A program made the translations under genes and the position numbers. DNA of 12,436 bases from positions 1 to 12,436 of the forward strand of contig JAILOC010000063.1 in NCBI GenBank assembly GCA_024691045.1. The letters run 5' to 3'. How positions within the stretch are numbered: the stretch's first letter is position 1; the number at the start of each line of letters is the position of its first letter. This DNA comes from Lachnospiraceae bacterium. Its GTDB lineage: Bacteria; Bacillota_A; Clostridia; Lachnospirales; Lachnospiraceae. Positions 1 through 12,436 of the stretch are shown piece after piece. Under the pieces are notes generated by a model that was not told the DNA's origin, searched no databases, and was given only the letters and a program-made list of their open reading frames with translations.

Positions 1-14
1 ATATAAAGTGAGAC

Positions 15-54
15 AAGGTATCGGTGTTCTGCTAGCAGAAAACACCGATACTTT
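15..54. repeat. Stem-loop 1 of the pre-tpiA cluster
   Basis: Inverted repeat. GGTATCGGTG (17-26) pairs with CACCGATACT (43-52, including one G-T wobble), extended by A15-T54 and A16-T53. Inside it, 27-40 is a perfect 14-base palindrome (TTCTGCTAGCAGAA), so the arm is almost fully paired with a two-base A bulge at 41-42. No T-run follows, so it is not a canonical intrinsic terminator for the unseen upstream gene. It could be a transcript-stabilising hairpin or a unit of a dispersed palindromic repeat. The structure is clear; the function is unknown. Confidence 0.75.
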
Positions 55-65
55 GGCGAACGAAA

Positions 66-115
66 CGGTTGAGCATTATCCCGCGTGTTACGCGGAAAAG
101 ATAATGCGAAAACCG
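66..115. repeat. Stem-loop 2 of the pre-tpiA cluster
   Basis: A nested three-segment hairpin. CGGTT (66-70) pairs with AACCG (111-115), GCATTATC (73-80) with GATAATGC (100-107), and CCGCG (81-85) with CGCGG (91-95), leaving a TGTTA loop at 86-90. Purine-rich internal loops separate the outer segments (GA at 71-72 against GAA at 108-110) and a four-A bulge lies at 96-99. Three paired blocks in register are unlikely by chance. It has no T-run and starts 11 bases after stem-loop 1. The function is unknown. Confidence 0.75.
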
Positions 116-116
116 G

Positions 117-148
117 CAGGATTTCGAGAGCGAAGCGGAGAAATCCTG
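117..148. repeat. Stem-loop 3 of the pre-tpiA cluster
   Basis: CAGGATTTC (117-125) pairs perfectly with GAAATCCTG (140-148), closing a 14-base purine-rich loop (GAGAGCGAAGCGGA) that may contain a small GC-GAA-GC hairpin. It begins one base after stem-loop 2 and ends about ten bases before the tpiA Shine-Dalgarno sequence, so it would sit in the tpiA 5' leader or the intercistronic RNA of a glycolytic operon. I see no anti-Shine-Dalgarno pairing, so a translation switch is not supported. Confidence 0.7.
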
Positions 149-173
149 ATATCGAAGAAAAGGAGAAATTTTT

Positions 174-920
174 ATGGCACGTAGAAGAATCATTGCCGGC
201 AACTGGAAGATGAACAAGACTCCTTCAGAGGCAGTAGCACTTTGTGCAGAGCTTAAGGATCTCGTTGTTAACGATGCTGTTGACGTAGTTTACTGCGTAC
301 CCGCTATCGACATCGTACCCGTTGCAGAGGCTGTTAAGGGCACCAACGTTCATGTAGGTGCAGAGAATTTCTACATCGAGGACAAGGGTGCATTCACCGG
401 TGAGATCTCAGCTCCCATGCTCAAGGATGCGGGTGTAGAATACATCATCATCGGACACTCTGAGAGAAGAGATATCTTCGGCGAGAATGATATCCTCATC
501 AATGCTAAGGTTAAGAAGGCATTTGCCGCAGGATTAAAGCCCATCCTCTGCTGCGGTGAGTCCCTTGCACTCCGCAAGGCAGGAACCTATAAAGAGTGGA
601 TCGCAAGACAGATCAAGTGGGATCTTGACGGTGTTACCGCAGATCAGGTCAAGGAGCTTGTTATAGCTTATGAGCCTATCTGGGCTATCGGAACCGGCGA
701 GACCGCAACTGCTGACCAGGCACAGGAAGTATGCAAGCTCATCCGTGATCTTATTGCTGAGATGTACGATGCAGCTACTGCAGAAGCAGTACGCATCCAG
801 TACGGCGGATCAATGAATGCAGGCAATGCAGCCGAGCTTCTTTCCAAGCCCGACATCGACGGCGGACTTATCGGCGGCGCTTCACTCAAGCCCGATTTCG
901 GCCAGATCGTAAACGCTTAA
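174..920 (+). CDS. tpiA: Triosephosphate isomerase
   Basis: Catalyses interconversion of dihydroxyacetone phosphate and D-glyceraldehyde 3-phosphate in glycolysis and gluconeogenesis. It is a cytoplasmic (beta/alpha)8 barrel that normally acts as a dimer. The 248-residue length is typical of bacterial TIMs. All catalytic elements are visible: N10 and K12 in GNWKMN, the electrophile H95 in GHSERR, the base E167 in [11 protein letters not shown] (the start of flexible loop 6), and the phosphate-binding GGSMNAGN (211-218) and GGLIGGASL (230-238) segments. The ATG at 174 has an AAAAGGAG ribosome binding site at 158-165, eight bases away, and begins with the usual short basic strand. No promoter is evident directly upstream, so it may be transcribed with a gene before the window (gap or pgk would be usual neighbours, but this cannot be seen). 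A strong terminator follows. Confidence 0.98.
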
Positions 921-937
921 TTTCCGGGAAATTTGTT

Positions 938-969
938 AAAAAGAGAGACCTCCGCGGTCTCTCTTTTTT
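938..969 (+). terminator. Intrinsic terminator after tpiA
   Basis: A 13-bp perfect stem (938-950 with 956-968: AAAAAGAGAGACC against its complement) closes a five-base TCCGC loop and runs into a T-tract at 964-969. It starts 17 bases after the tpiA stop and separates tpiA from the leucine-rich-repeat gene. The A-tract on the left arm could also allow termination from the minus strand. Confidence 0.93.
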
Positions 970-977
970 GATATAAT
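969..977 (+). promoter_or_regulatory. Extended -10 promoter for the LRR gene
   Basis: TGATATAAT is a TGn extended -10 joined to a perfect TATAAT (972-977). It sits directly on the T-tract of the tpiA terminator. No recognisable -35 box lies at the expected distance (949-954 reads CCTCCG), which extended -10 promoters tolerate. Transcription would begin near 984, giving a leader of about 40 bases before the start codon at 1024. Confidence 0.55.
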
Positions 978-1023
978 ATTCTTTACCCCTTGGCAGGATC
1001 GGGGGAAGGTAATCCCGAAACAT

Positions 1024-2124
1024 ATGGACAGAGAAAAGGTCTACAAGTTCATAATGTGTGCGTTTCCTGCGCTGCTGATCATTGCGGTCGTTTGCAGCGT
1101 TGCTTTTTCGCATGGGATGGTTTCGGATGCGGAAGAGGGAAATATCATCTCCGAAGAAGAGCAGAAGGAATCGAGGCTTACGGAGCTGCCGGAGGATGCA
1201 GCCCCGGCAGTAGACGAAGATTCTTCGCCTGACTCCACCGAGCACATCAACAACATCGCCACACCCGGCGTGATGTCCGCAACGGATTATGAAAACGCTG
1301 TGGCGGAAGCGGACGCATGGATCAAGGAGCACGGAATATACGTGCTCTCCGAATATGTTGATATATCACACAACGATATCAGTGATGTCGATATTGATAT
1401 GATCATTTCCAGATTTCCCAATGTTAACCGCCTTATCATGATCGACTGCGGACTTGATAATGCCGGCTATGCTGCGCTGCAGGACAGACATCCTGACATC
1501 AAGATCGTCTGGGAGATAGTTCTATCACACTGGACTATCCGCACCGATGTCGTGGCATTCAGTACTTTCAAGACAACTGCAGAGGAGTTCTACCTGCAGA
1601 ACGATGAAGCATATTATCTCAAGTACTGTAACGAGCTTGTGGCGCTCGATCTCGGACATAACTATGTTTCCGATCTTTCTTTTCTCGAGTATATGCCGGA
1701 TCTGAAGGTGTTGATCCTGGTAGATAACGTAAAGGAAAAAGACGGGGAAACGCTCAGGCACCTGACGGATCTGTCGGAGCTAAAGTATGTTCCGAAGCTC
1801 AGGTATCTCGAGATATTTGCAAATAACGTTTCGGACCTGTCATTTCTTGATTACATGCCGGATCTTGAAGACCTGAACATCAGCTACAATTCCGTGAGCA
1901 GCATCGAGCATATGAAGAATATGCCGAAGATCAAGAAGCTCTGGATGGAGCACACATACATATCGGGTGCGGGAGTAAGTACATTAAGACAGCTCTATCC
2001 CAACGCAAGGATAGTATCGAGCGGTGAAGGCTCCGTCGACCAGGGCTGGAGAAGCGGTGAGAGATACCGTGCGGTAAGAAGGATGTTTTTCGAAAACGTC
2101 ATTGAAGATCATTACAGGGATTAA
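1024..2124 (+). CDS. Membrane-anchored leucine-rich-repeat protein
   Basis: A 366-residue predicted surface protein. Residues 9-30 form a hydrophobic segment after MDREKVYK (signal anchor or signal peptide; no convincing lipobox). An acidic low-complexity linker follows at about 35-75. The rest contains leucine-rich repeats of the short internalin/SDS22 type: units near 111-140 (YVDISHNDISDVDID), 205-235 (LVALDLGHNYVSDLSFL), 247-275 (LRYLEIFANNVSDLSFL) and 279-310 (LEDLNISYNSVSSIEHM). The two SDLSFL-YMPDL units (216-227 and 270-281) are almost identical, pointing to recent internal duplication. The C-terminus is basic and lacks an LPxTG sorting signal. LRR domains generally bind protein or glycan partners; the partner here is unknown. 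The ribosome binding site is weak: GGGGGAAGG at 1001-1009 lies 14 bases from ATG 1024. No other in-frame start preserves the membrane segment. It appears to be transcribed from the promoter at 969-977. Confidence 0.85.
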   Translation: MDREKVYKFIMCAFPALLIIAVVCSVAFSHGMVSDAEEGNIISEEEQKESRLTELPEDAAPAVDEDSSPDSTEHINNIATPGVMSATDYENAVAEADAWIKEHGIYVLSEYVDISHNDISDVDIDMIISRFPNVNRLIMIDCGLDNAGYAALQDRHPDIKIVWEIVLSHWTIRTDVVAFSTFKTTAEEFYLQNDEAYYLKYCNELVALDLGHNYVSDLSFLEYMPDLKVLILVDNVKEKDGETLRHLTDLSELKYVPKLRYLEIFANNVSDLSFLDYMPDLEDLNISYNSVSSIEHMKNMPKIKKLWMEHTYISGAGVSTLRQLYPNARIVSSGEGSVDQGWRSGERYRAVRRMFFENVIEDHYRD

Positions 2125-2133
2125 AGATTGCAA

Positions 2134-2163
2134 GGTTAAGTTCCACACGAGGGAATCGAACCT
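2134..2163. other. Imperfect hairpin with tRNA T-loop-like sequence
   Basis: Read on the minus strand, 2162-2152 gives GGTTCGATTCC, matching the conserved G53-TTCRANTC-C61 core of a tRNA T-arm, and the next bases (GTGTGGA, then A) fall where an acceptor strand and discriminator base would be. However, the T-stem pairs poorly beyond two pairs, the 3' end reads CTT rather than CCA, and no matching 5' acceptor strand or anticodon arm exists nearby. On either strand it folds as GGTT/AACC plus TTCC/GGAA with a 3x3 internal loop. It may be a decayed tRNA 3' end or coincidence. It lies in the 80-base gap between the LRR and esterase genes. Confidence 0.3.
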
Positions 2164-2204
2164 GAAAAGTGATCTCTGAACATTAAAAATTCCGGAGGAA
2201 TAAT

Positions 2205-2987
2205 ATGGCTGAACTGAACGTAAGATTTTTTTCAAACTGTCTTCACAGGACCGTCGAATTCAGGATGCTCCTTCCCAATGAAGAAAGAAAGGATATCCCA
2301 TGGGAGGAGGAAAAGCACAGACCCGAGGATATGAAGACGATACTTCTTCTTCACGGATATACCGGTGACGGAGATATATGGGTGAACAGGGATGAAGCGA
2401 CGAATCTCAACATCGCTGTCGTTGCTCCTTCGGGTGAAAACGGCTTCTGGCTTGACGCGGAGGCAACCGGAAGACAGTACGCTTCATATGTCGGAGTCGA
2501 GCTCATCGATTACATCAGAAGAACATTCGGGATTGCGAAGACTCCCGATAAGACCGGTGTAATGGGTCTTTCAATGGGTGGCTTCGGTGCACTCCACACC
2601 GCACTTGCGTATCCCGAAACCTTCGGAAGCTGTGCCGCACTTTCATCAGCACTCATTCATCACGAGGTTGCGAAGATGAAGGAAGGGGAGGGCAATTCCG
2701 TAGCCAATTACGCATATTACAGGGAATGCTTTGGCGAGCCTTCAAAGCTTCTCGAAAGCGACAACAATCCGGAAACTCTGGTTAAGAAGATCAAAGCGGA
2801 CGGCAGGAAAATGCCAAGGATATTCATGGCCTGCGGAACAGAGGATTTCCTCCTCGAGCCCAACAGAAGATTCCACGAATTTCTTGTAAACGAAGGAATA
2901 GAGCATGTTTACGAGGAATCGGAAGGAGTCCACGACATGGTCTTCTGGAGCAGGTATTCCTCGATCTTCATGCCGCAGATGTTCTGA
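2205..2987 (+). CDS. Esterase-D-like alpha/beta hydrolase
   Basis: A 260-residue putative esterase of the esterase D / S-formylglutathione hydrolase superfamily (Pfam PF00756 type), similar in layout to tributyrin esterases of Gram-positive bacteria. It should hydrolyse short acyl or acetyl esters, including acetylated carbohydrates; the substrate cannot be told from sequence. The oxyanion-hole region is LLLHGYTG (47-54). The nucleophile is S123 in the elbow GLSMGG (121-126), the acid is D214 in GTEDFLL, and the base is H243 in GVHDMVFW, all in the family's usual order. There is no signal peptide, so it is probably cytoplasmic. The start at 2205 is set by GGAGG (2194-2198) seven bases upstream. 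No clear promoter is seen in the 80-base gap before it, so read-through from the LRR gene is possible. Fine functional names (acetylxylan esterase, S-formylglutathione hydrolase) are not supported. Confidence 0.9.
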   Translation: MAELNVRFFSNCLHRTVEFRMLLPNEERKDIPWEEEKHRPEDMKTILLLHGYTGDGDIWVNRDEATNLNIAVVAPSGENGFWLDAEATGRQYASYVGVELIDYIRRTFGIAKTPDKTGVMGLSMGGFGALHTALAYPETFGSCAALSSALIHHEVAKMKEGEGNSVANYAYYRECFGEPSKLLESDNNPETLVKKIKADGRKMPRIFMACGTEDFLLEPNRRFHEFLVNEGIEHVYEESEGVHDMVFWSRYSSIFMPQMF

Positions 2988-3012
2988 AACGCTGGAAACT
3001 CCTCGCTTTCAG

Positions 3013-3035
3013 GCGCCTGCGAACGTGCAGAGCGC
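3013..3035 (+). terminator. Possible weak terminator hairpin after the esterase
   Basis: GCGCCTGC (3013-3020) pairs with GCAG-A-GCGC (3027-3035), eight pairs with one bulged A and a six-base loop. Only a poor T-rich tail follows (ATTTAACTTT). A short CGG-AAA-CCG hairpin at 3046-3054 followed by ATTTTT (3055-3060) may help. Some stop signal is expected here because a new consensus promoter begins at 3062, but neither hairpin is convincing alone. Confidence 0.35.
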
Positions 3036-3061
3036 ATTTAACTTTCGGAAACCGATTTTTC

Positions 3062-3090
3062 TTGACTTGGAAACGAAAAAAATATATAAT
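3062..3090 (+). promoter_or_regulatory. Sigma-A promoter of the riboswitch-flotillin unit
   Basis: TTGACT (-35, 3062-3067) and TATAAT (-10, 3085-3090) are separated by exactly 17 bases, with an A-rich spacer. Transcription should begin around 3096-3098, which is the first base or two of the riboswitch closing helix. That agreement supports both calls. Confidence 0.9.
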
Positions 3091-3096
3091 CTTCTC

Positions 3097-3210
3097 AAGT
3101 GAAAGGGAGTAGCCAAAAGGCGGAAACTTTTTCCACCCGGCTTGAGATCGACACCCGGCGATGCAGCAGTTTTGCAGAGCCCGTATCAAGTGAGAAGGCA
3201 AGACTTTTAC
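3097..3210 (+). promoter_or_regulatory. yybP-ykoY-type manganese riboswitch aptamer
   Basis: The leader carries the hallmark strands of the yybP-ykoY family, known to bind Mn2+ (with Mg2+). These are GGAGTAGC (3106-3113) directly inside helix P1 and GCAAGA (3198-3203) on the returning strand. P1 forms from GTGAAAG (3099-3105) and CTTTTAC (3204-3210), seven pairs with one G-U. One arm is AAAAG/CTTTT (3115-3119 with 3127-3131, loop GCGGAAA). The long arm is closed by CTTGA/TCAAG (3141-3145 with 3186-3190) and contains TCGACA (3148-3153), which corresponds to the conserved TCAA/TCAACA-like block of the family. P1's 3' strand is also the 5' strand of the terminator at 3200-3243, so aptamer folding and termination exclude each other. 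I infer a transcriptional ON switch with Mn2+. Usual targets are Mn exporters or TerC-like proteins; here the next gene is a flotillin. Confidence 0.87.
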
Positions 3211-3243
3211 TGTAACTAAAGGTTGCGGTAAGAGTCTTTTTTT
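3200..3243 (+). terminator. Riboswitch-controlled intrinsic terminator
   Basis: AAGACTTTTAC (3200-3210) pairs with GTAAGAGTCTT (3228-3238). The helix continues through T3211-G3227 and GTAAC/GTTGC (3212-3216 with 3222-3226) to a five-base TAAAG loop, giving a continuous stem of about 17 bp with three G-U pairs. The T-tract is 3237-3243. The 5' strand overlaps the aptamer's GCAAGA element and P1, so ligand-stabilised P1 should block it. It lies about 100 bases before the flotillin start. Confidence 0.9.
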
Positions 3244-3293
3244 ATAGGATTACCGCATCCGCAACAACAAGTCGCCGGATGACGGTGACCGCA

Positions 3294-3312
3294 GTACATC
3301 GAACAGATGTAC
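3294..3312 (+). other. Short leader hairpin between the terminator and flotillin gene
   Basis: GTACATC (3294-3300) and GATGTAC (3306-3312) form a perfect 7-bp stem with a GAACA loop. There is no T-run, so it is not a terminator, and it leaves the flotillin ribosome binding site (GAGAGG, 3335-3340) free. It may protect the read-through transcript. No open reading frame of substance occupies 3244-3346. Confidence 0.5.
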
Positions 3313-3346
3313 CAGAGCCTGAAAAAGGCAGAAAGAGAGGAATTAT

Positions 3347-4861
3347 ATGGACGAGTATGTAGGAATTATTGTGATAGCGGTGATAGCGCTGATCCTGTTG
3401 GTCATCATTTTCATCACCGGCTATGTCAAGGCTTCGACCGATGAGGCTTTCATCATCACGGGTCTTCACAAGGAACCCAGATACCTGATCGGACGTGCGG
3501 GCATCAAGATCCCCTTCTTCGAAAAGAAGGACGTACTGAAGCTCCAGCTGATCCCCATCGATGTCAAGACAAGCTCCGCAGTTCCCACCGCAGACTACAT
3601 CAACATCATGGTTGATGCTACTGTAAACGTCCAGATCGGACATACCCCCGATCTCATCAAGAAGGCATCCAAGAACTTCCTGAACAAGAAGCCCGAGTAC
3701 ATCGCAGCCGTTGCGAGAGAAGTTCTCGAAGGTAATGTCCGTGAGATCGTAGGTAAGATGCACCTTGAAGAGATGGTTTCCGACCGTCAGAAATTCGCCA
3801 CTCTAGTTAAAGAGAACGCAGATCCCGATCTCGAGGCAATGGGTCTTGTGATCACCAGCTTCAACGTTCAGAATTTCGTAGATGACAATCACGTCATTGA
3901 GAACCTCGGTGTTGATAATGTTGTACGTATCCAGAAGGCTGCAGCTATTTCGAGAGCTGAGTCCGAAAGAGATATCAAGATCGCACAGGCACAGGCTGAC
4001 AAGGCTGCCAACGACGAGCAGGTAAAGGCTCAGACCGAGATCGCTACCAAGCAGAACGAGCTGGCTATCAAGCAGTCCGAACTGAAGCAGGAAGCTGATA
4101 CCAAGCAGGCTGCCGCAGACGCTGCTTATGAGATCCAGCAGCAGGAACAGAGAAAGACGATCGAAGTCACCAGAGCAAATGCGGACATCGCACGTCAGGA
4201 GAGAGAGACAGAGCTCAAGCAGCGTGAAGCTGATGTTAAAGAGCAGGTCCTCAATGCGGAAGTCAGAAAGAAAGCAGACGCAGAGAAGTACCGCCGTCAG
4301 CAGGAAGCAGATGCCGCTCTTATCGAAAGACAGCGTGAAGCAGATGCTAAGAAGTACGAGCAGGAGAAGGCAGCAGAGGCTGTCAAGGCTCAGGCAGACG
4401 CATCGGTTTATGCCAAGGAGAAGGAAGCAGCCGGTATTGCAGCCGTAGGTCGTGCAGAGGCAGAAGCTATTCAGGCAAAGGGTCTTGCAGAGGCAGAAGC
4501 AATGGAGAAGAAGGCAGAGGCATACGCTAAGTATAACAATGCCGCTATCACCGAGATGATCATCAAGCAGCTCCCTGCTATCGCCAAGGAAGTCGCAGCT
4601 CCCATCGCAGCAATCGAGAAGGTTACCGTTATCGATTCCGGCAGCGGTGATTCGGGAGTCGCAAGTGTCGGCGGATATACCCCCGCTGTCATGGCGAAGG
4701 TCATCGAATCCGTTAAGGAGACCACAGGCTTTGATCTTATGGATGTCATGAAGGCTCAGACCTATGACGCCAAGGTCAATAAGAACATCAACGTGACCGG
4801 ACTTGAAGCAGAGACCGTAAAGTCAGCTGTCAAAGCCGTCAGGAATGATGCAGAAGAGTAA
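3347..4861 (+). CDS. Flotillin-like SPFH-domain membrane protein
   Basis: A 504-residue flotillin of the SPFH/band-7 superfamily, a family that oligomerises in functional membrane microdomains and scaffolds other membrane proteins. An N-terminal membrane segment spans about 5-25 (GIIVIAVIALILLVIIFITG). It is followed by the flotillin-typical block YVKASTDEAFIITGL (26-40), IGRAGIKIPFFEK (48-60), and the SPFH domain to about 195. Residues 200-400 are a long Ala/Glu/Lys/Gln-rich coiled coil with EADAKK- and AEAEA-like repeats. A C-terminal region (about 400-504) has KQLPAIAKEVAAPI and a Gly/Ser-rich linker near 431-443. The start is set by GAGAGG (3335-3340). No NfeD-like partner gene is present in the window, although flotillins often sit beside one. 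The gene stands alone between the riboswitch-terminator and its own terminator, so its expression should be controlled by the leader. The family is certain; the Mn2+ link is inferred from the leader. Confidence 0.95.
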   Translation: MDEYVGIIVIAVIALILLVIIFITGYVKASTDEAFIITGLHKEPRYLIGRAGIKIPFFEKKDVLKLQLIPIDVKTSSAVPTADYINIMVDATVNVQIGHTPDLIKKASKNFLNKKPEYIAAVAREVLEGNVREIVGKMHLEEMVSDRQKFATLVKENADPDLEAMGLVITSFNVQNFVDDNHVIENLGVDNVVRIQKAAAISRAESERDIKIAQAQADKAANDEQVKAQTEIATKQNELAIKQSELKQEADTKQAAADAAYEIQQQEQRKTIEVTRANADIARQERETELKQREADVKEQVLNAEVRKKADAEKYRRQQEADAALIERQREADAKKYEQEKAAEAVKAQADASVYAKEKEAAGIAAVGRAEAEAIQAKGLAEAEAMEKKAEAYAKYNNAAITEMIIKQLPAIAKEVAAPIAAIEKVTVIDSGSGDSGVASVGGYTPAVMAKVIESVKETTGFDLMDVMKAQTYDAKVNKNINVTGLEAETVKSAVKAVRNDAEE

Positions 4862-4873
4862 GGCATTTTCACT

Positions 4874-4904
4874 CGGCCCGGGCCTCGAAGCCCGGGCCGT
4901 TTTT
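4874..4904 (+). terminator. Strong intrinsic terminator after the flotillin gene
   Basis: CGGCCCGGGC (4874-4883) pairs perfectly with GCCCGGGCCG (4890-4899) around a six-base CTCGAA loop, followed by TTTTT (4900-4904). The stem is all G-C and begins 13 bases after the stop codon. It closes the riboswitch-flotillin unit. Confidence 0.97.
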
Positions 4905-4905
4905 A

Positions 4906-4934
4906 TTGAAAAAATACGTATTTTCGGATAAAAT
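4906..4934 (+). promoter_or_regulatory. Sigma-A promoter of the HD-GYP sensor operon
   Basis: TTGAAA (-35, 4906-4911) and TAAAAT (-10, 4929-4934) have an exact 17-base spacing. The predicted transcription start is about 4940-4942, only 2-4 bases before the ATG at 4944, and no Shine-Dalgarno sequence exists before that ATG. This points to a leaderless or nearly leaderless mRNA. Confidence 0.75.
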
Positions 4935-4938
4935 ATCC
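4911..4938. promoter_or_regulatory. Operator-like palindromes inside the HD-GYP operon promoter
   Basis: AAAATACGTATTTT (4911-4924) is a perfect 14-base palindrome filling most of the -35/-10 spacer. GGATA-AAA-TATCC (4926-4938) is a second perfect inverted repeat overlapping the -10. Their placement is what a repressor operator would require. Low sequence complexity means the A/T-only outer parts could be partly chance. No cognate regulator gene is seen in the window. Confidence 0.45.
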
Positions 4939-4943
4939 AGTGT

Positions 4944-7900
4944 ATGGGGAAATTTGGGAGTGGAAAATTCAAGAACTCTCCTATTGGGACAATACTCATT
5001 GTTTTCTTTTGTATTGTCGTTAATTTTGTGGGCAAGCATATTGCCGTAAAATACGATCTTCCCCTCTGGCTCGATTCTCTCGGGACTGTCTTCGCAGCAT
5101 ATGTACTCGGCCCCGTCAGCGGTGCGATAATCGGATGCACCGGCAATATCATCTATTCATTCTGGGATGCCAATTCACTCGCATACAGCCTTACAAGCAT
5201 TTATATAGGCGCAAGCATGGGCGTTGCCGCAAGGAAGAAATACTTCGAGACCTTCTTCGGTGCGACTACGGTTGCGGGCGGTGTCACCATCGGCTCAGTA
5301 TTTGTTTCGACGATCCTGAACCTGTCATTCTACGGGGGCTACACCGGCAATGTCTGGGGCGACGGCGTCGTCAATTTCCTCATAGACAGGAATATCCCCA
5401 AGTTCATAGCATCGACCATAGGCGAGATGTATCTGGACTTTCTCGACAAGATCATCACCGTTCTGTTCATGTATTTCCTGATCAAGTTCGTAAGGGCATT
5501 CAGAAGACAGAAGGAAATAGATGATGCTCTCAAAGCTTCCGCAAAGGCGGGCTTTCTGATCGCGCTGATCCTTGCGGGATCTCTTTCGCCTGCCATAAGA
5601 ACAGAAGCTGCAGGCAGGAACACCGTTACGTATATCCAGAGAATCTTTAATGCGGACAACGGACTTCCCTGCGGACATGCCAACGACATCGTCCAGACCA
5701 ATGACGGGATCCTCTGGGTGGGAAGCTATTCGGGACTTTACAGATATAACGGAAGCTCCTTCCGCTTTATGGAGGAGTTCGATAATGTCAAGAATGTCAA
5801 CTGTCTCTACGTGGACGAAGAGGGCAGGCTCTGGATCGGAACCAACGACAGCGGTGTGGTAATCGCAATAGGCTCCGAGCAGGTCAACATTCTCAATACC
5901 ACCAAAGGACTTCCTTCAGACTCCGTAAGAAGCATCGTGCAGAGCTCGGATGGTGATTACTATATCGGAACTTCGGATCAGATGGTCGTTGTGCGCCTTA
6001 AGAACGGCATCACCATCTCTGACGAATTCCCAGGGATCCGATATGCGCAGAGCATAGCCGCTGACAGAAACGGCTATGTTGCGGCCGTAACAGCAGAGGG
6101 ACGTCTGTATCTGATCAAAGAAGGAAAGGTGATCTGCGAGGTTCCGAAGTTTGACGAAAGGACCTTCTATTCAGCCTGTGAATTCAGCAGTGAAGGGATC
6201 CTCTATGCCGGAACTACGGACGGCAGGGTCATGATGTTCAAGATCATGAATGATACCGCCTCGATAACCCATACACAGGCTTGTTCGGGTCTATCCGAGA
6301 TCAACAGGATCTATTTCACCGATACCGATACATGGGTTCTTTCGGATAACGGCATCGGAAGGATTCACGGCAATTCCTTCACCCCCGTTCCCACGGGTGA
6401 TTACAATTCATCCATCGAGAGAATGTGTGTCGACTATCAGGGTAACCTCTGGTTCGCATCGACAAGGCACGGACTTCTCCAGCTTTCCGAGTCGTGCTTT
6501 TCGGATCTGTATACTCTTTACGGCATCAACAGTGCGGTGGTAAATACAACGGCAATCCAAGAGGGCCTGCTATATATAGGTGCGGATAACGGACTTACGG
6601 AGGTTCATCTTTCGTCGGGTTCGCTTCGCCGTGACGAAATGACAGAAATGCTGAGCGGTGTCCGCATCAGATGCATACTTTCGGATTCTTCGGGCAATCT
6701 GTGGCTTTGCACATACGGCAAGGGACTCATCTGCCGGACGAAAAGAGGCGAGATCATTTTCTACAATTCCGAAGAGTACGGGATTGGAAACAGGGTAAGA
6801 GGATGCATTGAGATGTCCGACGGAAGCATTGCCGTCAGCGCAGACTCGGGTCTTTCCATTATCCGTAACGGCAAGGTCATAAACACTATCCCCTACGGCG
6901 ACGAACTCGGATCATCACAGATACTTTCTCTCTGCGAATATTCGGACGGCAAGCTTTATCTCGGAACCGACGGAAACGGGATAAGGATATATGAAAACGG
7001 GGAGATAACGGGACAGCTGACCAAGGAAGACGGACTCGGCTCCGGAGTCATCCTCAAGATGATCTATGACAAAGAATATGATGTGATGTTCATTGTCACC
7101 AGCAACTGCCTCTGCTATATGAAAAAGTCCGTCCTTACGCAGGTGAGCGGATTCCCTTATTCCAATAATTATGACATCGTACTCGATAACGACGGTGAAG
7201 CATTCGTTCTCGGAAGTGCGGGAATATACGTCGTCCGTAAAGAGGCCCTTTTGTCGGATGAACCTGTCGAATATATGCTCCTTAATTCCAGGCTCGGACT
7301 TCGCGGTGCGCTTACCGCCAATTCATGGAATGAAGTCACGGAGGACGGAGATCTGTATCTGTCCACTGACCGCGGCGTCATCAAGGTCAACCTCGATAAT
7401 TACAGATCCGTCAGACGCGCTTACAGACTGATGGTTTCGAAGGTCATCCTCGACGGAAAGCCCGTTTCTATCGAAAGAGGCAACAGGCTCATCGTCGACA
7501 AGGATGTTAATACCATCGAGTTCGTTCCGGAGATAGTCAATTTCTCGCTCGAAGATCCTAAGGTGTCGTATTATCTTGAAGGCGTCGACGGAAGCTACAA
7601 GACCGTTCCCCAGAGCGAGCTTTCAAGTGCGATATATACGAATCTTCCCTCCGGTGAATATGTATTCCACATCGCGATAATAGACGAAGAGACCGGAAGC
7701 ATCCTCGAGGAAAGCTCGTACGGCTTCGTAAAAGAAAACTCGATCTACGACAATAACTGGTTCATGTTCTACATGCTCTTCGTCGGCGGACTCTTCGTCG
7801 GATGGGCAACCTGGTTCTACACCAGATACTGGGCACAGAAGAAGATTACCATGCAGCAGCAGAGACTCACCCTCGCCCTCAAGCAGGTAGAGATGGGTAA

Positions 7901-8501
7901 CGAGACCATCATGGCTATCGCAAGGACAGTTGACGCGAAGGATTCGATGACGAGCAGGCATTCCCAGAGAGTATCCGAGTACTCCGTCCTTATTGCCAGA
8001 AAGATGGGCTTCTTCGAAGAGGAGATCGATAACCTCAGAAATGCCGCACTCCTTCACGACATCGGCAAGATCGGCATTCCCGATGCAATACTCAATAAGC
8101 CCGACAGGCTTACCGATGAAGAATACGCTAAGATGAAGGAACACACTACTCTCGGTGCGGAGATCCTCAAGGACTTCACACTTGTCGATCATGCTGCTGA
8201 GGGTGCGAAATACCACCACGAGCGCTATGACGGATCGGGATATCCCGAAGGCCTCAAGGGAGAGGATATACCTCTCTACGGAAGGATCATCGCGATAGCC
8301 GATGCATTCGATGCAATGACCGCAACCCGTGTTTACAGGAAGAGACTTTCCTTCGATCAGGTTATGAAGGAGCTTGAAGACGGACGCGGAAAACAGTTCG
8401 ATCCCGTGCTTCTCGATCTGTTCCTCGAGATGATCGGTGACGGCGATATAGACGTTGAAACTCTTTATACTGATCCGGAGGCTGTAAATGGAAGCCGCTG
8501 A
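4944..8501 (+). CDS. ECF-S-like / propeller / HD-GYP transmembrane sensor
   Basis: A 1185-residue multidomain receptor predicted to hydrolyse c-di-GMP. Residues 14-185 form a polytopic membrane domain resembling ECF-transporter S components (PLWLDSLGTVFAAYVLGPVSG at 40-60, NIIY at 68-71, FYGGYTGNVWGD at 129-140). A basic cytosolic linker (184-201) leads to a seventh membrane segment (about 202-218). About 228-820 is an extracellular beta-propeller of two-component-regulator type, with repeated LWVGSYSGLYRY-, LWIGTNDSGV- and LYLGTDGNGI-like blades. A Y_Y_Y-type domain spans about 828-930, and a further membrane segment 938-960. A short helical linker precedes the HD-GYP domain (about 985-1165): H1006, HD at 1038-1039, K1042, H1067, HH at 1091-1092, the DGSGYPEGLKG signature (1096-1106) and D1120. 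Topology is consistent: six helices, one out, propeller outside, one in, catalysis inside. The start has no Shine-Dalgarno but sits 2-4 bases after a predicted transcription start. The 3' end overlaps the next gene by 14 bases. All HD-GYP metal ligands checked are present, so activity is expected. The ligand is unknown. Confidence 0.92.
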   Translation: MGKFGSGKFKNSPIGTILIVFFCIVVNFVGKHIAVKYDLPLWLDSLGTVFAAYVLGPVSGAIIGCTGNIIYSFWDANSLAYSLTSIYIGASMGVAARKKYFETFFGATTVAGGVTIGSVFVSTILNLSFYGGYTGNVWGDGVVNFLIDRNIPKFIASTIGEMYLDFLDKIITVLFMYFLIKFVRAFRRQKEIDDALKASAKAGFLIALILAGSLSPAIRTEAAGRNTVTYIQRIFNADNGLPCGHANDIVQTNDGILWVGSYSGLYRYNGSSFRFMEEFDNVKNVNCLYVDEEGRLWIGTNDSGVVIAIGSEQVNILNTTKGLPSDSVRSIVQSSDGDYYIGTSDQMVVVRLKNGITISDEFPGIRYAQSIAADRNGYVAAVTAEGRLYLIKEGKVICEVPKFDERTFYSACEFSSEGILYAGTTDGRVMMFKIMNDTASITHTQACSGLSEINRIYFTDTDTWVLSDNGIGRIHGNSFTPVPTGDYNSSIERMCVDYQGNLWFASTRHGLLQLSESCFSDLYTLYGINSAVVNTTAIQEGLLYIGADNGLTEVHLSSGSLRRDEMTEMLSGVRIRCILSDSSGNLWLCTYGKGLICRTKRGEIIFYNSEEYGIGNRVRGCIEMSDGSIAVSADSGLSIIRNGKVINTIPYGDELGSSQILSLCEYSDGKLYLGTDGNGIRIYENGEITGQLTKEDGLGSGVILKMIYDKEYDVMFIVTSNCLCYMKKSVLTQVSGFPYSNNYDIVLDNDGEAFVLGSAGIYVVRKEALLSDEPVEYMLLNSRLGLRGALTANSWNEVTEDGDLYLSTDRGVIKVNLDNYRSVRRAYRLMVSKVILDGKPVSIERGNRLIVDKDVNTIEFVPEIVNFSLEDPKVSYYLEGVDGSYKTVPQSELSSAIYTNLPSGEYVFHIAIIDEETGSILEESSYGFVKENSIYDNNWFMFYMLFVGGLFVGWATWFYTRYWAQKKITMQQQRLTLALKQVEMGNETIMAIARTVDAKDSMTSRHSQRVSEYSVLIARKMGFFEEEIDNLRNAALLHDIGKIGIPDAILNKPDRLTDEEYAKMKEHTTLGAEILKDFTLVDHAAEGAKYHHERYDGSGYPEGLKGEDIPLYGRIIAIADAFDAMTATRVYRKRLSFDQVMKELEDGRGKQFDPVLLDLFLEMIGDGDIDVETLYTDPEAVNGSR

Positions 8502-9693
8502 AAAGAAAAAGATCATATGGGTCGTGCTGGCATCCTTCATCTGCATCCTTGAGTTCTTCGCCTACAGGCATCTGGAAGAAAAGCTGGATTTCGGACACAA
8601 GGAGATCACGGTCGGACTGATCGTTGACGGAGACGAGAGCACGCCCTACAGTGAAAACTTCATACACGCGATGGATACGATGAAGGAAGAATTCGGCGAC
8701 GACATCGATATCATGATCAGATGCAATGTCCCCTACGAAGAGGTGGAGGATGTACTCAGGGAGCTTGTCGATAAAGGCTGCGACATAATCTTCACCAACA
8801 GTTACGGATACGGTGAAACCGTTAAAGAAATCGCCAAAGAGTACCCGGGCATACAGTTCTGTCAGGCAACCTGCGATAACGGTGACAGGGATATCGTATC
8901 GAATTACCACACCTTCATGGGTGAGATATACGAGGGCAGATACATTGCCGGAATGCTTGCGGGACTTAAACTGACCGAGCTTGTTGACAAGGGAGTCATC
9001 ATCCCCGAGGAAGCCTGGATCGGTTACGTAGGTGCATATCCCTATCCCGAAGTCATATCCGGATACACGGCATTTTTCCTCGGTGCAAGACAGACCTGTC
9101 CGAGCGTAAGGATGAGAGTCAGGTATACGAATACCTGGACGAGCTATATGAAGGAGAAGGAACTCGCCGGGATACTTATTGACGAAGGCTGCATAATCAT
9201 CTCACAGCATTCGGATACAATAGGTCCTGCGGTCATGTGTGAAAATGCCGCTTCGGATCATCCCGTTTACCATGTCGGATATAATCTCGATATGATAGAC
9301 GTTGCACCCACGACATCGCTCATCGGGACCAGGATAAACTGGACGCCTTACATCCGCGAAGCCATCAGGGCAACAATGAACGGACGCAAGATAGAAGAGG
9401 TCATACGCGGACATGTTCACGGAAATGACATCGGTGCGGGCTTTGAAAGAGGATGGGTCGAGATGCTCGAGCTCAATCCCGCGATCGCACCCGAGGGCGG
9501 AGCAGAGCTTGTAAACAAAACGATAGACGATTTCAAGAACGGAAGGGTCCATGTCTTCCATGGAGATTATATAGGACTCAATCCCGCAGATCCGTCCGAC
9601 TCCTGGAATCTGAATACCGAGTTCATTGAAAACAGCGAGCGTTCGGCTCCTTCGTTCAGATACATACTTAAGGATGTTATAATCGTAGAATAG
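8488..9693 (+). CDS. Membrane-anchored BMP-family (PnrA-like) binding protein
   Basis: A 401-residue protein of the BMP/PnrA-like substrate-binding family (PF02608 type), a periplasmic-binding-protein fold. Known members bind purine nucleosides (PnrA) or riboflavin (RfuA), or act as regulators (Bacillus Med). Residues 9-26 form an N-terminal membrane anchor after EKKK, with no lipobox cysteine. The binding domain runs about 38-365: ITVGLIVDGD (40-49), YSENFIHAMDTMKEEF (54-69), GCDIIFTNSYGYGE (97-110), EGRYIAGMLAGL (149-160), WIGYVGAYPYPEVISGYTAFFLGA (177-200) and GAGFERGWVEM (316-326), matching family landmarks such as the G-Y-AG-LAG block. The ATG at 8488 follows GGAGG (8477-8481) and overlaps the HD-GYP gene's end by 14 bases, indicating translational coupling. 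No ABC ATPase or permease follows, so a sensory rather than transport role is favoured. The ligand cannot be assigned. Confidence 0.87.
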   Translation: MEAAEKKKIIWVVLASFICILEFFAYRHLEEKLDFGHKEITVGLIVDGDESTPYSENFIHAMDTMKEEFGDDIDIMIRCNVPYEEVEDVLRELVDKGCDIIFTNSYGYGETVKEIAKEYPGIQFCQATCDNGDRDIVSNYHTFMGEIYEGRYIAGMLAGLKLTELVDKGVIIPEEAWIGYVGAYPYPEVISGYTAFFLGARQTCPSVRMRVRYTNTWTSYMKEKELAGILIDEGCIIISQHSDTIGPAVMCENAASDHPVYHVGYNLDMIDVAPTTSLIGTRINWTPYIREAIRATMNGRKIEEVIRGHVHGNDIGAGFERGWVEMLELNPAIAPEGGAELVNKTIDDFKNGRVHVFHGDYIGLNPADPSDSWNLNTEFIENSERSAPSFRYILKDVIIVE

Positions 9694-9738
9694 GAGCGGG
9701 ACAAAGCGGCATGATCAGTGTCAGGAAGTGAGGTCTGT

Positions 9739-10761
9739 ATGAAGATTGGAAAGCTGCTGCTTTCAGCCTCAGCATTTATCATATCATTACTTGCCTGTGC
9801 ACAGACGGCTATAGCTGCGCCCGTGCAGATGGCCGACGGACAGCTTTTCGACCTGCAGTATTATGCTGCTTCGAATCCGGATGTTGTAAGCGTCTTCGGA
9901 ACGGATCCGAATTACCTGTACCTGCACTACGCAGTATGTGGAAAGGCTGAAGGAAGGCTCCCTTATGCACAGGGCACGGCTGCATCACTTCCTGCGGCGG
10001 GAGCAGGCATAGCACAGACTCGGATAAATGTCTTCGGTGCACTCGTGGGACACGGCGAGATCTGTGAGAACGGACGCATCACTTCCCGGTCTCCCGGATA
10101 TATGCAGATAGAGACGCCCGAGTATATCATGACCGTCACCGGAAGCAGCATTAATTTCTACCGCGACGAATCGGTGCTTTTTGATGCGAACGCATATGCA
10201 ATGCTGAACCCGGATATTGCTGCGGTCTGCGGGACCGATAAGGCAGCCCTCTGGAACGAATACAAGACGGAAGGCGTATATCAGGGAAGGCAGGCTTTGG
10301 GGACGACTCTTAATGCCAACGCAAAGCTTATCATCATTCAGGTCGCTCAGGCCATAACAACTCCGAATATGACTACGGAGCAGAAGATACGTGCCGTGCA
10401 CGACTGGATGGCCGCTTATGCGTGCTATGATGAATCCTTCGCAGAGGCTTCACAGACTATCGAGGGCTTCATATACAACCGGACCGCAGTATGTGCGGGA
10501 TATGCGAAGACCTTCGAATACTTCATGGCCGTCCTCGGGATTCCCTGTGAGACAGTAAGGGGTATCGCAGACGGTGAAGAACATGCATGGAACAGGGTTG
10601 CGGCAGACGGAGTATGGCTCAGCATCGACGTTACATGGGACGATCCCGTCTATACGCTGAACGGAGTGCGCACAGACAGGGTTTCACGCGACTATTACCT
10701 GATCCCCGAAGCAAGAATGAATGCGGATCATTTCCCTGTTTCATACCATGATTTCTATTAA
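9739..10761 (+). CDS. Secreted transglutaminase-like protein with duplicated module
   Basis: A 340-residue exported protein. The signal sequence MKIGK + LLLSASAFIISLLAC is ambiguous: LLAC (17-20) could be a lipobox with lipid attachment at C20, or cleavage may follow AIA (24-26). A GTG at 9718 would add seven residues, but ATG 9739 is better placed after GTGAGG (9728-9733) and gives a normal signal peptide. Two copies of an FD-YY-NPDV-GTD-L-Y-G-GR module follow (about 36-74 and 147-184); such modules recur in clostridial surface proteins. A transglutaminase-like core (about 205-340, PF01841 type) has the triad C252 (TAVCAGYAKTF), H282 (GEEHAWNRV) and D297 (SIDVTWDDP). Members of this fold act as cysteine proteases, amidases or crosslinkers; which applies here is unknown. 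It lies 45 bases after the BMP gene with no terminator between, so it is probably in the HD-GYP operon. Confidence 0.88.
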   Translation: MKIGKLLLSASAFIISLLACAQTAIAAPVQMADGQLFDLQYYAASNPDVVSVFGTDPNYLYLHYAVCGKAEGRLPYAQGTAASLPAAGAGIAQTRINVFGALVGHGEICENGRITSRSPGYMQIETPEYIMTVTGSSINFYRDESVLFDANAYAMLNPDIAAVCGTDKAALWNEYKTEGVYQGRQALGTTLNANAKLIIIQVAQAITTPNMTTEQKIRAVHDWMAAYACYDESFAEASQTIEGFIYNRTAVCAGYAKTFEYFMAVLGIPCETVRGIADGEEHAWNRVAADGVWLSIDVTWDDPVYTLNGVRTDRVSRDYYLIPEARMNADHFPVSYHDFY

Positions 10762-10806
10762 CGCAGGCAATGCACTTTTAATAAAATAATTAAAGGAGCT
10801 GAAAAT

Positions 10807-12054
10807 ATGATTTACAAATGTAAAAACTGTGGCGGCGATATGGTGTTCGAGCCTTCGATCGGCAAGATGAAGTGCCCGTTCTGCGATTCCACCGAGTGCG
10901 AGGAAGCAAGCACCGGTTCCGAGATCAAGGACGGCGACGTTGCGACCGAGGAAACTGCTCAGGAGCTCGGATATTCCGCAGCCGGAAATCTACTGTGCCC
11001 CAATTGCGGATGTGAGATCGAGCTCGGCAAGTTCACATCTGCGCTCAGATGTCCTGCCTGCGATTCGAACATCATCGTCGATTCCAGGATGAAGGGAGAG
11101 TACAGGCCGGAATTCATGACTCCCTTCAAGATAGATGAGAAGAAAGCCAAGGATATGATCAGGCAGAAATTTGCTTCGATGAAATTCGCTCCCAGGGACC
11201 TTGTCAGCGAAGCAAGGCTCAAGAAGATCCAGGGCTGGTATATGCCCACCTGGTTCTATGATATGGATACTACACTTGACTATTTTGCGACCGGTATCCA
11301 GGAGAAAAAGGAAACAAAGGGAAATACGGAATATACCCATATAGATTCATACGATGTAAACCGAGTCATCGATGCGAAGTTTAACAAGCTCCCCGTAGAT
11401 GCTGCGGATGACCTTCCCGATCAGATGATGGATCTGCTCGCTCCATTTGATACCAAGGATTCAATGCCATACGATTCCAGATATATGTCCGGCTTCTATT
11501 CGGAGCAGTATAATCAGTCTGCCGATCAGCTTCGCGTAAGAGCGGAGCAGCAGGTTGAGCATTTCGGAAGAAGCATGTGTCAGGAGGAGGCTCAGAGCGG
11601 AGCTCACGGCAGGTACAACAGGACCGAGAATGAGAACCTCAAGGTCCGGTACAATGATGTAAGCACTCATTACGGCCTTATGCCCGTATGGAAGTATGAT
11701 TATTCATACAAGGATCAGCCTTATCCCTTCTATATTAACGGTCAGACCGGTAAGATCGTCGGAACCGCTCCGGTTGACCCGAAGAGAGTATGGTCATTCG
11801 CTGCCATTGTCGGTGCTGTCATCATTGCGGTCGGAATCCTTCTGTCCTTCCTGATGGATTTCAGCTTCTTCCTTCCCATCGTTGCAGGTATCATCATCGG
11901 ACTTATCGTGGGCTTCGTGAACATGAATCCCGCAGCGGGCAAAGTGACCGTCAATTCCGCAACATACGTCTCTCCCGGTGATAAGCAGATCAAGCTTTCC
12001 ACCGATGTATATAGGGGAAGAGAGACCAAAACGCGTCAGCTGAACAGTAATTGA
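10807..12054 (+). CDS. Double zinc-ribbon membrane protein, TFIIB-type ribbon
   Basis: A 415-residue protein of unknown function. Two Cys4 zinc ribbons lie at the N-terminus: C5/C8 with C23/C26 (YKCKNCGG, MKCPFCDS) and C64/C67 with C82/C85 (LLCPNCGC, LRCPACDS), separated by an acidic linker. A soluble region follows (about 100-325) with TPFKID (105-110), WYMPTWFYDMD (144-154) and GLMPVWKYDYSY (290-301). These resemble a widespread Firmicutes family often labelled 'TFIIB-type zinc ribbon-containing protein'. Two membrane helices are predicted at about 329-348 and 355-372, then a short tail. Both termini are likely cytoplasmic, consistent with zinc ribbons and no signal peptide. The start is set by AAAGGAG (10792-10798), eight bases before the ATG. 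It follows the transglutaminase gene by 45 bases without a terminator. A weak promoter (TTAACG, 18 bases, TAAAAT at 10782-10787) cannot be excluded. No transcription-factor role is implied by the family name. Confidence 0.85.
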   Translation: MIYKCKNCGGDMVFEPSIGKMKCPFCDSTECEEASTGSEIKDGDVATEETAQELGYSAAGNLLCPNCGCEIELGKFTSALRCPACDSNIIVDSRMKGEYRPEFMTPFKIDEKKAKDMIRQKFASMKFAPRDLVSEARLKKIQGWYMPTWFYDMDTTLDYFATGIQEKKETKGNTEYTHIDSYDVNRVIDAKFNKLPVDAADDLPDQMMDLLAPFDTKDSMPYDSRYMSGFYSEQYNQSADQLRVRAEQQVEHFGRSMCQEEAQSGAHGRYNRTENENLKVRYNDVSTHYGLMPVWKYDYSYKDQPYPFYINGQTGKIVGTAPVDPKRVWSFAAIVGAVIIAVGILLSFLMDFSFFLPIVAGIIIGLIVGFVNMNPAAGKVTVNSATYVSPGDKQIKLSTDVYRGRETKTRQLNSN

Positions 12055-12064
12055 TAAATAACCG

Positions 12065-12093
12065 TTGACAAATCCGCGCAAAGTGGGTATATT
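12065..12093 (+). promoter_or_regulatory. Sigma-A promoter of rpsT
   Basis: A perfect TTGACA (-35, 12065-12070), 17-base spacer and TATATT (-10, 12088-12093) give the strongest promoter in the window, as expected for a ribosomal protein gene. Transcription should start near 12100, leaving a leader of about 110 bases. It lies 11 bases after the stop of the zinc-ribbon gene; I see no terminator between them. Confidence 0.92.
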
Positions 12094-12110
12094 AGCAAAG
12101 TGTGTGATGT

Positions 12111-12162
12111 TTTAGCGTGCGTGTCTCGCTTTGAATGCATCCCGTCAATGCATTAGGCTAAA
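12111..12162 (+). promoter_or_regulatory. Structured leader of rpsT
   Basis: TTTAGC (12111-12116) pairs with GCTAAA (12157-12162), enclosing a perfect AATGCAT/ATGCATT hairpin (12134-12140 with 12148-12154, seven-base loop). The GTGCGTGTCTCGCTTTG side (12117-12133) may form an additional small arm. The fold sits between the promoter and the rpsT ribosome binding site with no T-run. S20 autoregulates its own translation in Escherichia coli, so a regulatory leader is plausible, but no match to a known leader class is claimed. Confidence 0.45.
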
Positions 12163-12211
12163 GTCACCGGCACTGTAATAACTTGTATTGAATATTTTTG
12201 GAGGTGTTACT

Positions 12212-12436
12212 TTGGCTAACATTAAGTCTGCTAAGAAGAGAGTACTTGTTGATCGCAGGAACGAAGAGAGAAATAAGGCTATCCGTTCATCTGCAAAGAC
12301 CGCGATCAAGAAGGTTTATTCTGCAGTAGAAGGCGGAGACAAGAGCGCAGCTGAAGCTGAGCTCAGGGAAGCTACCAAGACTCTTGAGATGGCTGCTACC
12401 AAGGGCGTATATCACAAGAACAACGTAGCTAACAAG
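12212..12436 (+). CDS. rpsT: 30S ribosomal protein S20, partial (5' part, 75 codons)
   Basis: A primary 16S rRNA-binding protein of the small subunit body. After the start codon the product begins ANIKSAKKRVLVDRRNEERN and continues with a helical Lys/Ala-rich body (KTAIKKVYSAVEGGD, AEAELREATKTLE, KGVYHKNNVANK), the classic S20 pattern. The window ends inside the gene, probably about ten to fifteen codons before the stop given the usual 85-90 residue length. The start is TTG at 12212, supported by GGAGGTG (12200-12206). No ATG lies in frame between the ribosome binding site and the conserved N-terminus. E. coli rpsT also uses TTG, so the weak start may be part of the gene's control. Confidence 0.96.
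   Translation, partial: MANIKSAKKRVLVDRRNEERNKAIRSSAKTAIKKVYSAVEGGDKSAAEAELREATKTLEMAATKGVYHKNNVANK

Follow-up and report, generated by a model that had tools for sequence, protein, structure and literature searches.

In a 12,436-nucleotide (nt) stretch of DNA from Lachnospiraceae bacterium (assembly GCA_024691045.1, contig JAILOC010000063.1, positions 1 to 12,436; hereafter the window), a flotillin gene lies behind a leader of metal-riboswitch type at 3096-3245, which confirms an observation of the preliminary description of this DNA. The yybP-ykoY-type aptamer and its terminator platform probably act as an ON switch for this single gene, most likely in response to Mn2+. Aptamer, platform and flotillin control are supported by conservation, by covariation and by a covariance model that bridges to leaders in front of cation transporters. 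The aptamer type is known, and its placement before SPFH scaffold genes is apparently undescribed in the open-access papers searched.

Structure of the leader and of the flotillin transcription unit

All features are on the forward strand. A sigma-70-type promoter was identified at 3062-3090, with TTGACT as -35 (3062-3067), TATAAT as -10 (3085-3090) and a spacer of 17. It matches the consensus at 11 of 12 positions, in agreement with the consensus promoter described earlier at the start of the aptamer, and ranks among the two best of 18 promoter-like sites in the window, the count of such sites being uninformative alone (shuffle average 14.3). Similar promoter-like sequence was seen by eye 5' of the leader in 12 related loci, and the RNA is expected to start near 3096-3098.

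Folded alone, 3097-3211 forms P1.1, L1, P1.2, P2 and P3 (-31.5 kcal/mol), where P3 bears the side loop L3 and a distal hairpin. The two strands previously named as typical of the family were found, GGAGTAGC at 3106-3113 and GCAAGA at 3198-3203. An alternative pairing with the bases just 5' of the expected RNA start was not adopted, as these bases are presumably untranscribed. The helices were evaluated in two alignments, A4 (40 leaders: 13 flotillin leaders including that of the window, and 27 sites found with the model R1, see below) and A6 (39 leaders, SPFH-linked and transporter-linked ones aligned together). The 5' strand of P1.1 (3098-3105) pairs with 3204-3211, with 95.1% of cells paired in A4. 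The 5' strand of L1, GGAGTA (3106-3111), is present in 39/39 leaders of A6 and by eye in all 40 rows of A4, and its 3' strand AAGA (3200-3203) reads AAGA in 28 and GAGA in 11 of the 39. P1.2 pairs GCC (3112-3114) with GGC (3197-3199), and in L011 and L019 a C-G pair has become G-C (GCG/CGC). The P2 hairpin (3119-3137; arms 3119-3124 and 3132-3137) has all six pairs doubly changed in A4, and its pair 3121-3135 is C-A in the window. P3 is formed by CTTGA (3141-3145) and TCAAG (3186-3190), and its pairs are changed on both sides at four of five positions in A4 and at five of five in A6. L3, GATCGACACC, occupies 3146-3155; it has A at 3151, where most relatives have T, and A3153 corresponds to the Mn2+ discriminator adenosine. 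Above it, the stem-loop P3.1 (3156-3183) pairs CGG (3156-3158) with CCG (3181-3183) around a variable hairpin, with weaker support (84.6% of cells paired and no doubly changed pair in A4; 78.4% and one such pair in A6).

The expression platform is an intrinsic terminator at 3200-3245, composed of a stem of 18 pairs (3200-3238) and a T tract, with a folding energy of -21.9 kcal/mol (z -7.5), and it is kept in 11/11 flotillin leaders of a further alignment (A2). By folding and in A4, the 3' strand of P1.1 (3204-3211) lies inside the 5' arm of the terminator, so that P1.1 and the terminator are mutually exclusive, and when 3097-3240 is folded the terminator replaces P1. The overlap reported earlier between the P1 3' strand and a terminator thus stood, and the stem was corrected from 17 to 18 pairs.

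A Shine-Dalgarno-like AGAGAGG was read from the sequence at 3334-3340. It precedes the controlled gene at 3347-4861, which encodes a flotillin family protein of 504 amino acids (aa; Pfam, NCBIfam). Both the SPFH/Band_7 domain (PF01145, 83.8 bits) and the flotillin C-terminal domain (PF15975, Flot, 33.7 bits) exceed their cut-offs, which places the protein in the flotillin family, and the score against the FloT equivalog NF058507 is 305 bits, short of the cut-off of 700 bits. A strong intrinsic terminator at 4874-4904, with a stem of 10 GC pairs (4874-4899), ends the unit, so flotillin is the next and sole gene as originally described.

In the proposed mechanism, a metal ion, most likely Mn2+, would bridge L1 and L3 and stabilise helix P1.1. 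The stabilised helix would keep its own 3' strand out of the terminator, and RNA polymerase could continue into flotillin, whereas the 18-bp terminator would form in the absence of metal.

Conservation, covariation and the genes behind leaders of this type

For the flotillin comparison, the best 80 matching loci from reference genomes were used. Besides the window, 12 of these have a complete leader directly upstream of flotillin, and their flotillins are 91-98% identical to that of the window; one locus (L004) has the 3' end of the leader only, and the upstream DNA of another (L012) falls outside the comparison. In the 13 aligned aptamers, L1, L3 and P3 are near-invariant (the P3 pairs entirely so), P1.1 varies little or not, and P2 and the distal hairpin differ between loci both in sequence and in length. 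The preliminary description had proposed checking whether aptamer and SPFH gene are kept together in homologues; the pairing recurs, with a patchy distribution. The idea of a leader before every close flotillin had to be given up, since L013-L018, L020-L024 and the remainder are without it.

Leader and flotillin are separated by 103 nt in the window; across the 13 loci the separation is about 60-120 nt wherever the flotillin start can be aligned. Other leaders of the same type precede exporters, and the leader could in principle belong to a lost or unseen exporter gene, with accidental read-through into flotillin. This explanation, which had been raised at the outset as a refuting one, is largely refuted: none of the 13 loci has space for a gene between the full leader and flotillin, and the same arrangement occurs at other flotillins and at HflK-like genes.

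A covariance model (R1) was built from the 13 flotillin leaders. Applied to 298 genomes from the family to which AC2028 (G001) belongs, it yielded 60 sites, spread over 47 genomes, at E<=0.01 with strict filters. R1 aligned transporter-linked leaders poorly, and a second model (R2) was therefore built from the 40 close relatives in A4, while an alignment A5 was not used for counts. Its 27 leaders from outside the flotillin set precede SPFH genes or genes of a ~140-aa protein and/or YccF, apart from L111 (before a penicillin-binding protein), L088 (before a gene without Pfam match) and L110 (before a contig end), and no training leader of R2 is known to precede a transporter. Across the whole class, the family included, R2 gave sites in 45 of 341 genomes (E<=0.001, strict filters). 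Of 47 listed class sites one is L087, AC2028's copy of the window arrangement and found by construction, and 42 of the other 46 were examined. Downstream genes on the same strand were classed by protein similarity. Representatives were checked by Pfam or NCBIfam for the labels P-type ATPase, Na/Ca exchanger, OadB, CNNM, YccF, SPFH and hflK, while HflC-like second genes, MntP-like genes (L120, L121, L124) and the Na/phosphate-cotransporter-like gene of L195 were labelled by eye.

Cation transporters follow 41 of the 42 class sites (12 P-type ATPases, 17 Na/Ca exchangers and 12 OadB genes), and hflK follows the remaining one. Retrieval of transporter leaders by a model whose training set has no leader known to precede a transporter is the strongest indication that the window carries a yybP-ykoY-type metal riboswitch. 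The 60 R1 sites are distributed as 9 before SPFH genes, 24 before the ~140-aa protein and/or YccF, 20 before transporters and 7 before other genes or a contig end. The 20 comprise 12 P-type ATPases, 3 OadB, 3 Na/Ca exchangers, 1 CNNM and L195, where the cotransporter-like gene comes first and OadB second. SPFH-linked are L087, the flotillins L115, L186 and L188, and the SPFH genes L091, L096, L102, L192 and L203, those of L192 and L203 being HflK-HflC-like. In one 7.4 Mb genome (G182) four leaders occur, whose L3 spacers are all 3 nt; they stand in front of a flotillin, an HflK-HflC-like pair, a ~140-aa protein/YccF pair and a P-type ATPase. In another (G253) a leader outside the listed R1 sites was found from the protein side, before HflK-HflC-like genes.

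With 3 to 6 SPFH genes per genome in nine genomes checked, the 10 SPFH-linked sites among 102 greatly exceed the number expected by chance (binomial 9e-14, calculated on 10/100 with an assumed 6 SPFH genes in 2500; 4.5e-12 for 9/101 without L087), where the sites are non-independent and R1 and R2 were seeded from a flotillin leader. The aptamer type thus serves a wider set than flotillin, namely cation transporters, repeatedly SPFH genes, and the ~140-aa protein/YccF pair. The original reading of a yybP-ykoY-type aptamer with a terminating platform controlling flotillin was retained, and its gene association had to be widened.

In A4, 94.6% of cells pair and 13 of 25 pairs are changed on both sides; double-change cells number 115, whereas shuffles average 31.4 and slid controls give 3-25. 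In A6 they number 188 (shuffle mean 55.2, slid controls 18-48), L1 GGAGUA is kept in 39/39 and so is the discriminator A (35 CGUCA, 3 CGACA, 1 CGCCA). For the 13 flotillin leaders, totals of paired and of doubly changed cells lie above all shuffles.

Several points weigh against this reading. The folding energy of the aptamer is not significant against shuffles (z -1.0; 26/200 equally stable), and single-sequence folding energy was dropped as evidence; the aptamer is taken to be beyond chance because conservation and covariation separate it from shuffles. Among the 13 flotillin leaders only 3 pairs are changed on both sides, a number reached by 65/500 shuffles. A4 and A6 were fitted to the model and lean towards the structure, which the slid controls offset partly, the rows of A6 were chosen as R2 hits or known leaders, and the sites are phylogenetically non-independent. 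The 66 other flotillin loci gave no R2 hit at E<=1, over upstream lengths that vary, and all their flotillins are closer to that of the window than the flotillins of L188, L186 and L115 (63%, 50% and 49% identity), which stand behind leaders with a 3-nt L3 spacer. HflK was found in 38/119 genomes (E<=1e-20) and the ~140-aa protein also in 38/119 (E<=1e-5); a leader is upstream of HflK in 4 of 30 loci examined, two of them already known sites, and upstream of the ~140-aa protein in 9 of 30, most already known, so the association is recurrent but patchy. A narrow TGNGC-form pattern run on 246 genomes of the order gave 2 sites of identical sequence, both before an HflK gene, and was discarded for estimating frequency, as it excludes the window itself.

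The ~140-aa protein (e.g. L097:1753-2184) forms a family with 1843 homologues, named 'hypothetical protein' where named, and is often followed by YccF. No Pfam or NCBIfam match was obtained for the members tried, and the similarity to it is weak for L090 (40 bits) and for the first frame of L102 (30 bits). OadB, the beta subunit of a Na+-pumping decarboxylase, is directly 3' of the leader at 12/42 class sites examined (L125, L136, L138, L139, L144, L146, L148, L149, L213, L216, L218 and L223). At L128 / L211, tandem leaders each precede their own Na/Ca exchanger gene.

L3 subtype, ligand and possible role

The L3 spacer, counted from the discriminator A to the next C-G pair, is 2 nt in the window and in the flotillin leaders of alignment A3. 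Among 61 transporter-linked sites, 44 score 3 nt and none 2 nt, while 17 are unscorable by the pattern, several being 4-5 nt by eye. A 2-nt spacer was found at 22 of 32 SPFH, ~140-aa protein or YccF sites (L106-L108 collapsed to one, L087 by eye). The association of the 2-nt spacer with gene class gives a Fisher probability of 5e-14, or 9e-12 without the 17 unscored sites, with relatedness ignored. This split could reflect tuned affinity, a changed ligand, or the descent of one leader lineage together with its genes.

The shorter loop, seen only before non-transporter genes, makes a changed ligand possible. On that account the 2-nt subtype would be a variant descended from Mn2+ riboswitches that responds to a different ion or signal and is used for SPFH and ~140-aa protein/YccF membrane genes instead of export. 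Leaders with 2-nt and 3-nt spacers coexist in single genomes (G036, G249 and G259 by pattern; G246, G136 and G032 by eye), and a review from the Breaker laboratory (PMC7266159) expects yybP variants with altered specificity for divalent ions. Such a variant is nevertheless considered unlikely, as the window keeps the discriminator A and L1 unchanged, the 2-nt type may be merely one leader lineage, and a shared ligand is favoured by the 3-nt form also standing before SPFH or ~140-aa protein/YccF genes (L115, L132, L186, L188, L189, L192, L203). In favour of the yybP-ykoY reading, the CGACA form of the window also precedes transporters (L151, L153). A distinct class split off from Mn2+ riboswitches in the Lachnospiraceae, with a 2-nt L3 and a three-way junction, that would sense another ion or a membrane-related metal signal for a regulon of SPFH, ~140-aa protein and YccF genes, is rated similarly improbable. 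In L114 (= L290) and L116, both before a ~140-aa protein gene, the discriminator A is replaced by U (CGUCU), and these two are candidates for changed ligand specificity; like them, the transporter sites L202 and L214, which depart from the L3 pattern, are exceptions outside A6. The paired leaders within one genome offer material for comparing ligand switching.

Apart from the L3 of the window, which is one nt shorter than in the scorable transporter-linked leaders, two results from seven close-relative genomes tell against Mn2+: the flotillin leader is the only R2 hit there at E<=1, and the MntP genes present in five of the seven are without a leader by pattern or Rfam. No exporter in these genomes therefore ties the aptamer to Mn2+; only homology does. 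Mn2+ is still rated the most likely ligand of the window leader.

The likely role would be to adjust membrane microdomains and FtsH-linked quality control of membrane proteins when intracellular metal is high, and more SPFH scaffold under metal load could adjust both this quality control and the export machinery. For Bacillus subtilis, PMC10246235 lists FtsH, FloT and FloA with the membrane proteins recovered by co-immunoprecipitation of the TerC proteins MeeF and MeeY(YkoY), and reports that cells lacking both TerC proteins cannot do without FtsH; HflK, HflC and FtsH are described as one large complex in PMC12005517. Should flotillin, HflK-HflC and their partners be under Mn2+ control, metal overload would be coupled directly to microdomain assembly and FtsH-linked quality control. 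This would agree with PMC10246235, where MeeF and MeeY(YkoY) depend on FtsH and are co-immunoprecipitated with flotillins, and it would give genetic access to the still open function of bacterial SPFH proteins.

Elsewhere in the window, a Clostridiales-1 RNA (RF01699, 58.7 bits) at 1-154, cut at the 5' end of the window, is located just upstream of triosephosphate isomerase. The 1185-aa protein encoded at 4944-8501 combines a hydrophobic N-terminal region (by eye), a two-component-regulator beta-propeller, Y_Y_Y and a C-terminal HD_5/HD, a domain fusion that looks unusual.

Comparison with the yybP-ykoY family and other known systems

The preliminary description had proposed scoring the leader against the yybP-ykoY model of Rfam, RF00080; it falls below threshold, with no match at E<=10, and an Rfam scan of the leader returned no relevant family. 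As the cut-off is not reached, the leader is filed as a variant of the yybP-ykoY type and not as a member of RF00080. This failure counts against membership but carries little weight, since RF00080 has low power in this bacterial family. Run with strict filters, it has matches at E<=0.001 in 6 of the 298 family genomes, none of which reaches the gathering cut-off, while 3 of 14 control genomes are hit. At E<=1 it misses the leaders before a P-type ATPase (L085) and CNNM (L083) and has no match in 12 scanned loci of R1-type leaders, and it found nothing in four related genomes, three of them among the seven close relatives. Conversely, R1 misses five of the six leaders found by RF00080, and leaders of that form may therefore have escaped the R2 search of the seven genomes. 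In the consensus of RF00080 as printed for L119-L121, the P1/L1 5' strand has no pairing partner, and this would account for the model's poor sensitivity here. Together these results suggest that the standard RNA model overlooks many leaders of this type.

The lack of recognition by RF00080, the altered L3 and the very stable terminator would also suit a structured leader that controls flotillin otherwise, as a protein-bound attenuator or a constitutive terminator, after metal sensing was lost. We regard this as very unlikely: the leader retains L1, the discriminator A and a P1 that overlaps the terminator, although the metal core would be expected to erode first under drift, and R2 retrieves transporter-linked leaders.

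Two further structural features speak against family membership in the strict sense. Solved yybP-ykoY structures contain a four-way junction (PMC6754395, PMC11087558), and the window has no P4 between P3 and P1.2; its L3 spacer of 2 nt is also short of the at least 3 nt of transporter-linked members, and this difference is a genuine one. P4 is probably not defining here, because 38 other leaders, among them transporter-linked ones, can be aligned along the whole of the three-helix R2 model (they had been selected because they were hits or already known); for the same reason, absence of P4 as a peculiarity of flotillin leaders was rejected.

A side match concerns SSRC10 (RF02617, Streptococcus sRNA 10), which matches L082, L120 and L123 weakly and below cut-off (E 0.18, 0.009 and 0.67) and does not match the window. 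Its catalogue entry is that of a small RNA (sRNA) and not of a riboswitch. The consensus includes GGGAGuag and CGUCaaUACG, core strings of yybP-ykoY-like leaders, and the family is possibly a misfiled Mn2+ riboswitch.

No account of a yybP-ykoY-type leader paired with flotillin, HflK or YccF was found in the open-access papers searched, and gene lists behind subscription could name SPFH genes. Compared with the transporter regulons of Mn2+ riboswitches, the R1 and R2 hits are alike in preceding P-type ATPases, Na/Ca exchangers and OadB. The nearest NCBIfam models of the leader-linked P-type ATPases are PMR1/SERCA-type calcium ATPases, below cut-off and with the frame cut by the locus end, and three RF00080 hits (L120, L121, L124) precede the MntP-like genes. 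The SPFH scaffold genes and the ~140-aa protein/YccF pair differ from such regulons in not being transporters.

The closest known system is the yybP-ykoY Mn2+ riboswitch of Lactococcus lactis and Xanthomonas oryzae. In that system, Mn2+ sits on the adenosine of UCA in L. lactis (A41) and of ACA in X. oryzae (A48); in the Xanthomonas structure it stabilises the switch helix P1.1, and antitermination by yybP-ykoY riboswitches is described (PMC6754395). The window differs from it in the missing P4, the L3 shorter by one nt, the negative RF00080 result and the control of flotillin instead of a Mn2+ exporter. It shares with it P1.1 and P1.2, the L1 loop of GGAGUA and (A or G)AGA strands between them (3106-3111 and 3200-3203), the platform in which P1.1 competes with a terminator, and the invariant adenosine of L3, for which A3153 is the equivalent by alignment with CGUCA/CGACA leaders and not by structure; its CGACA resembles the ACA48 of the Xanthomonas structure (PMC6754395).

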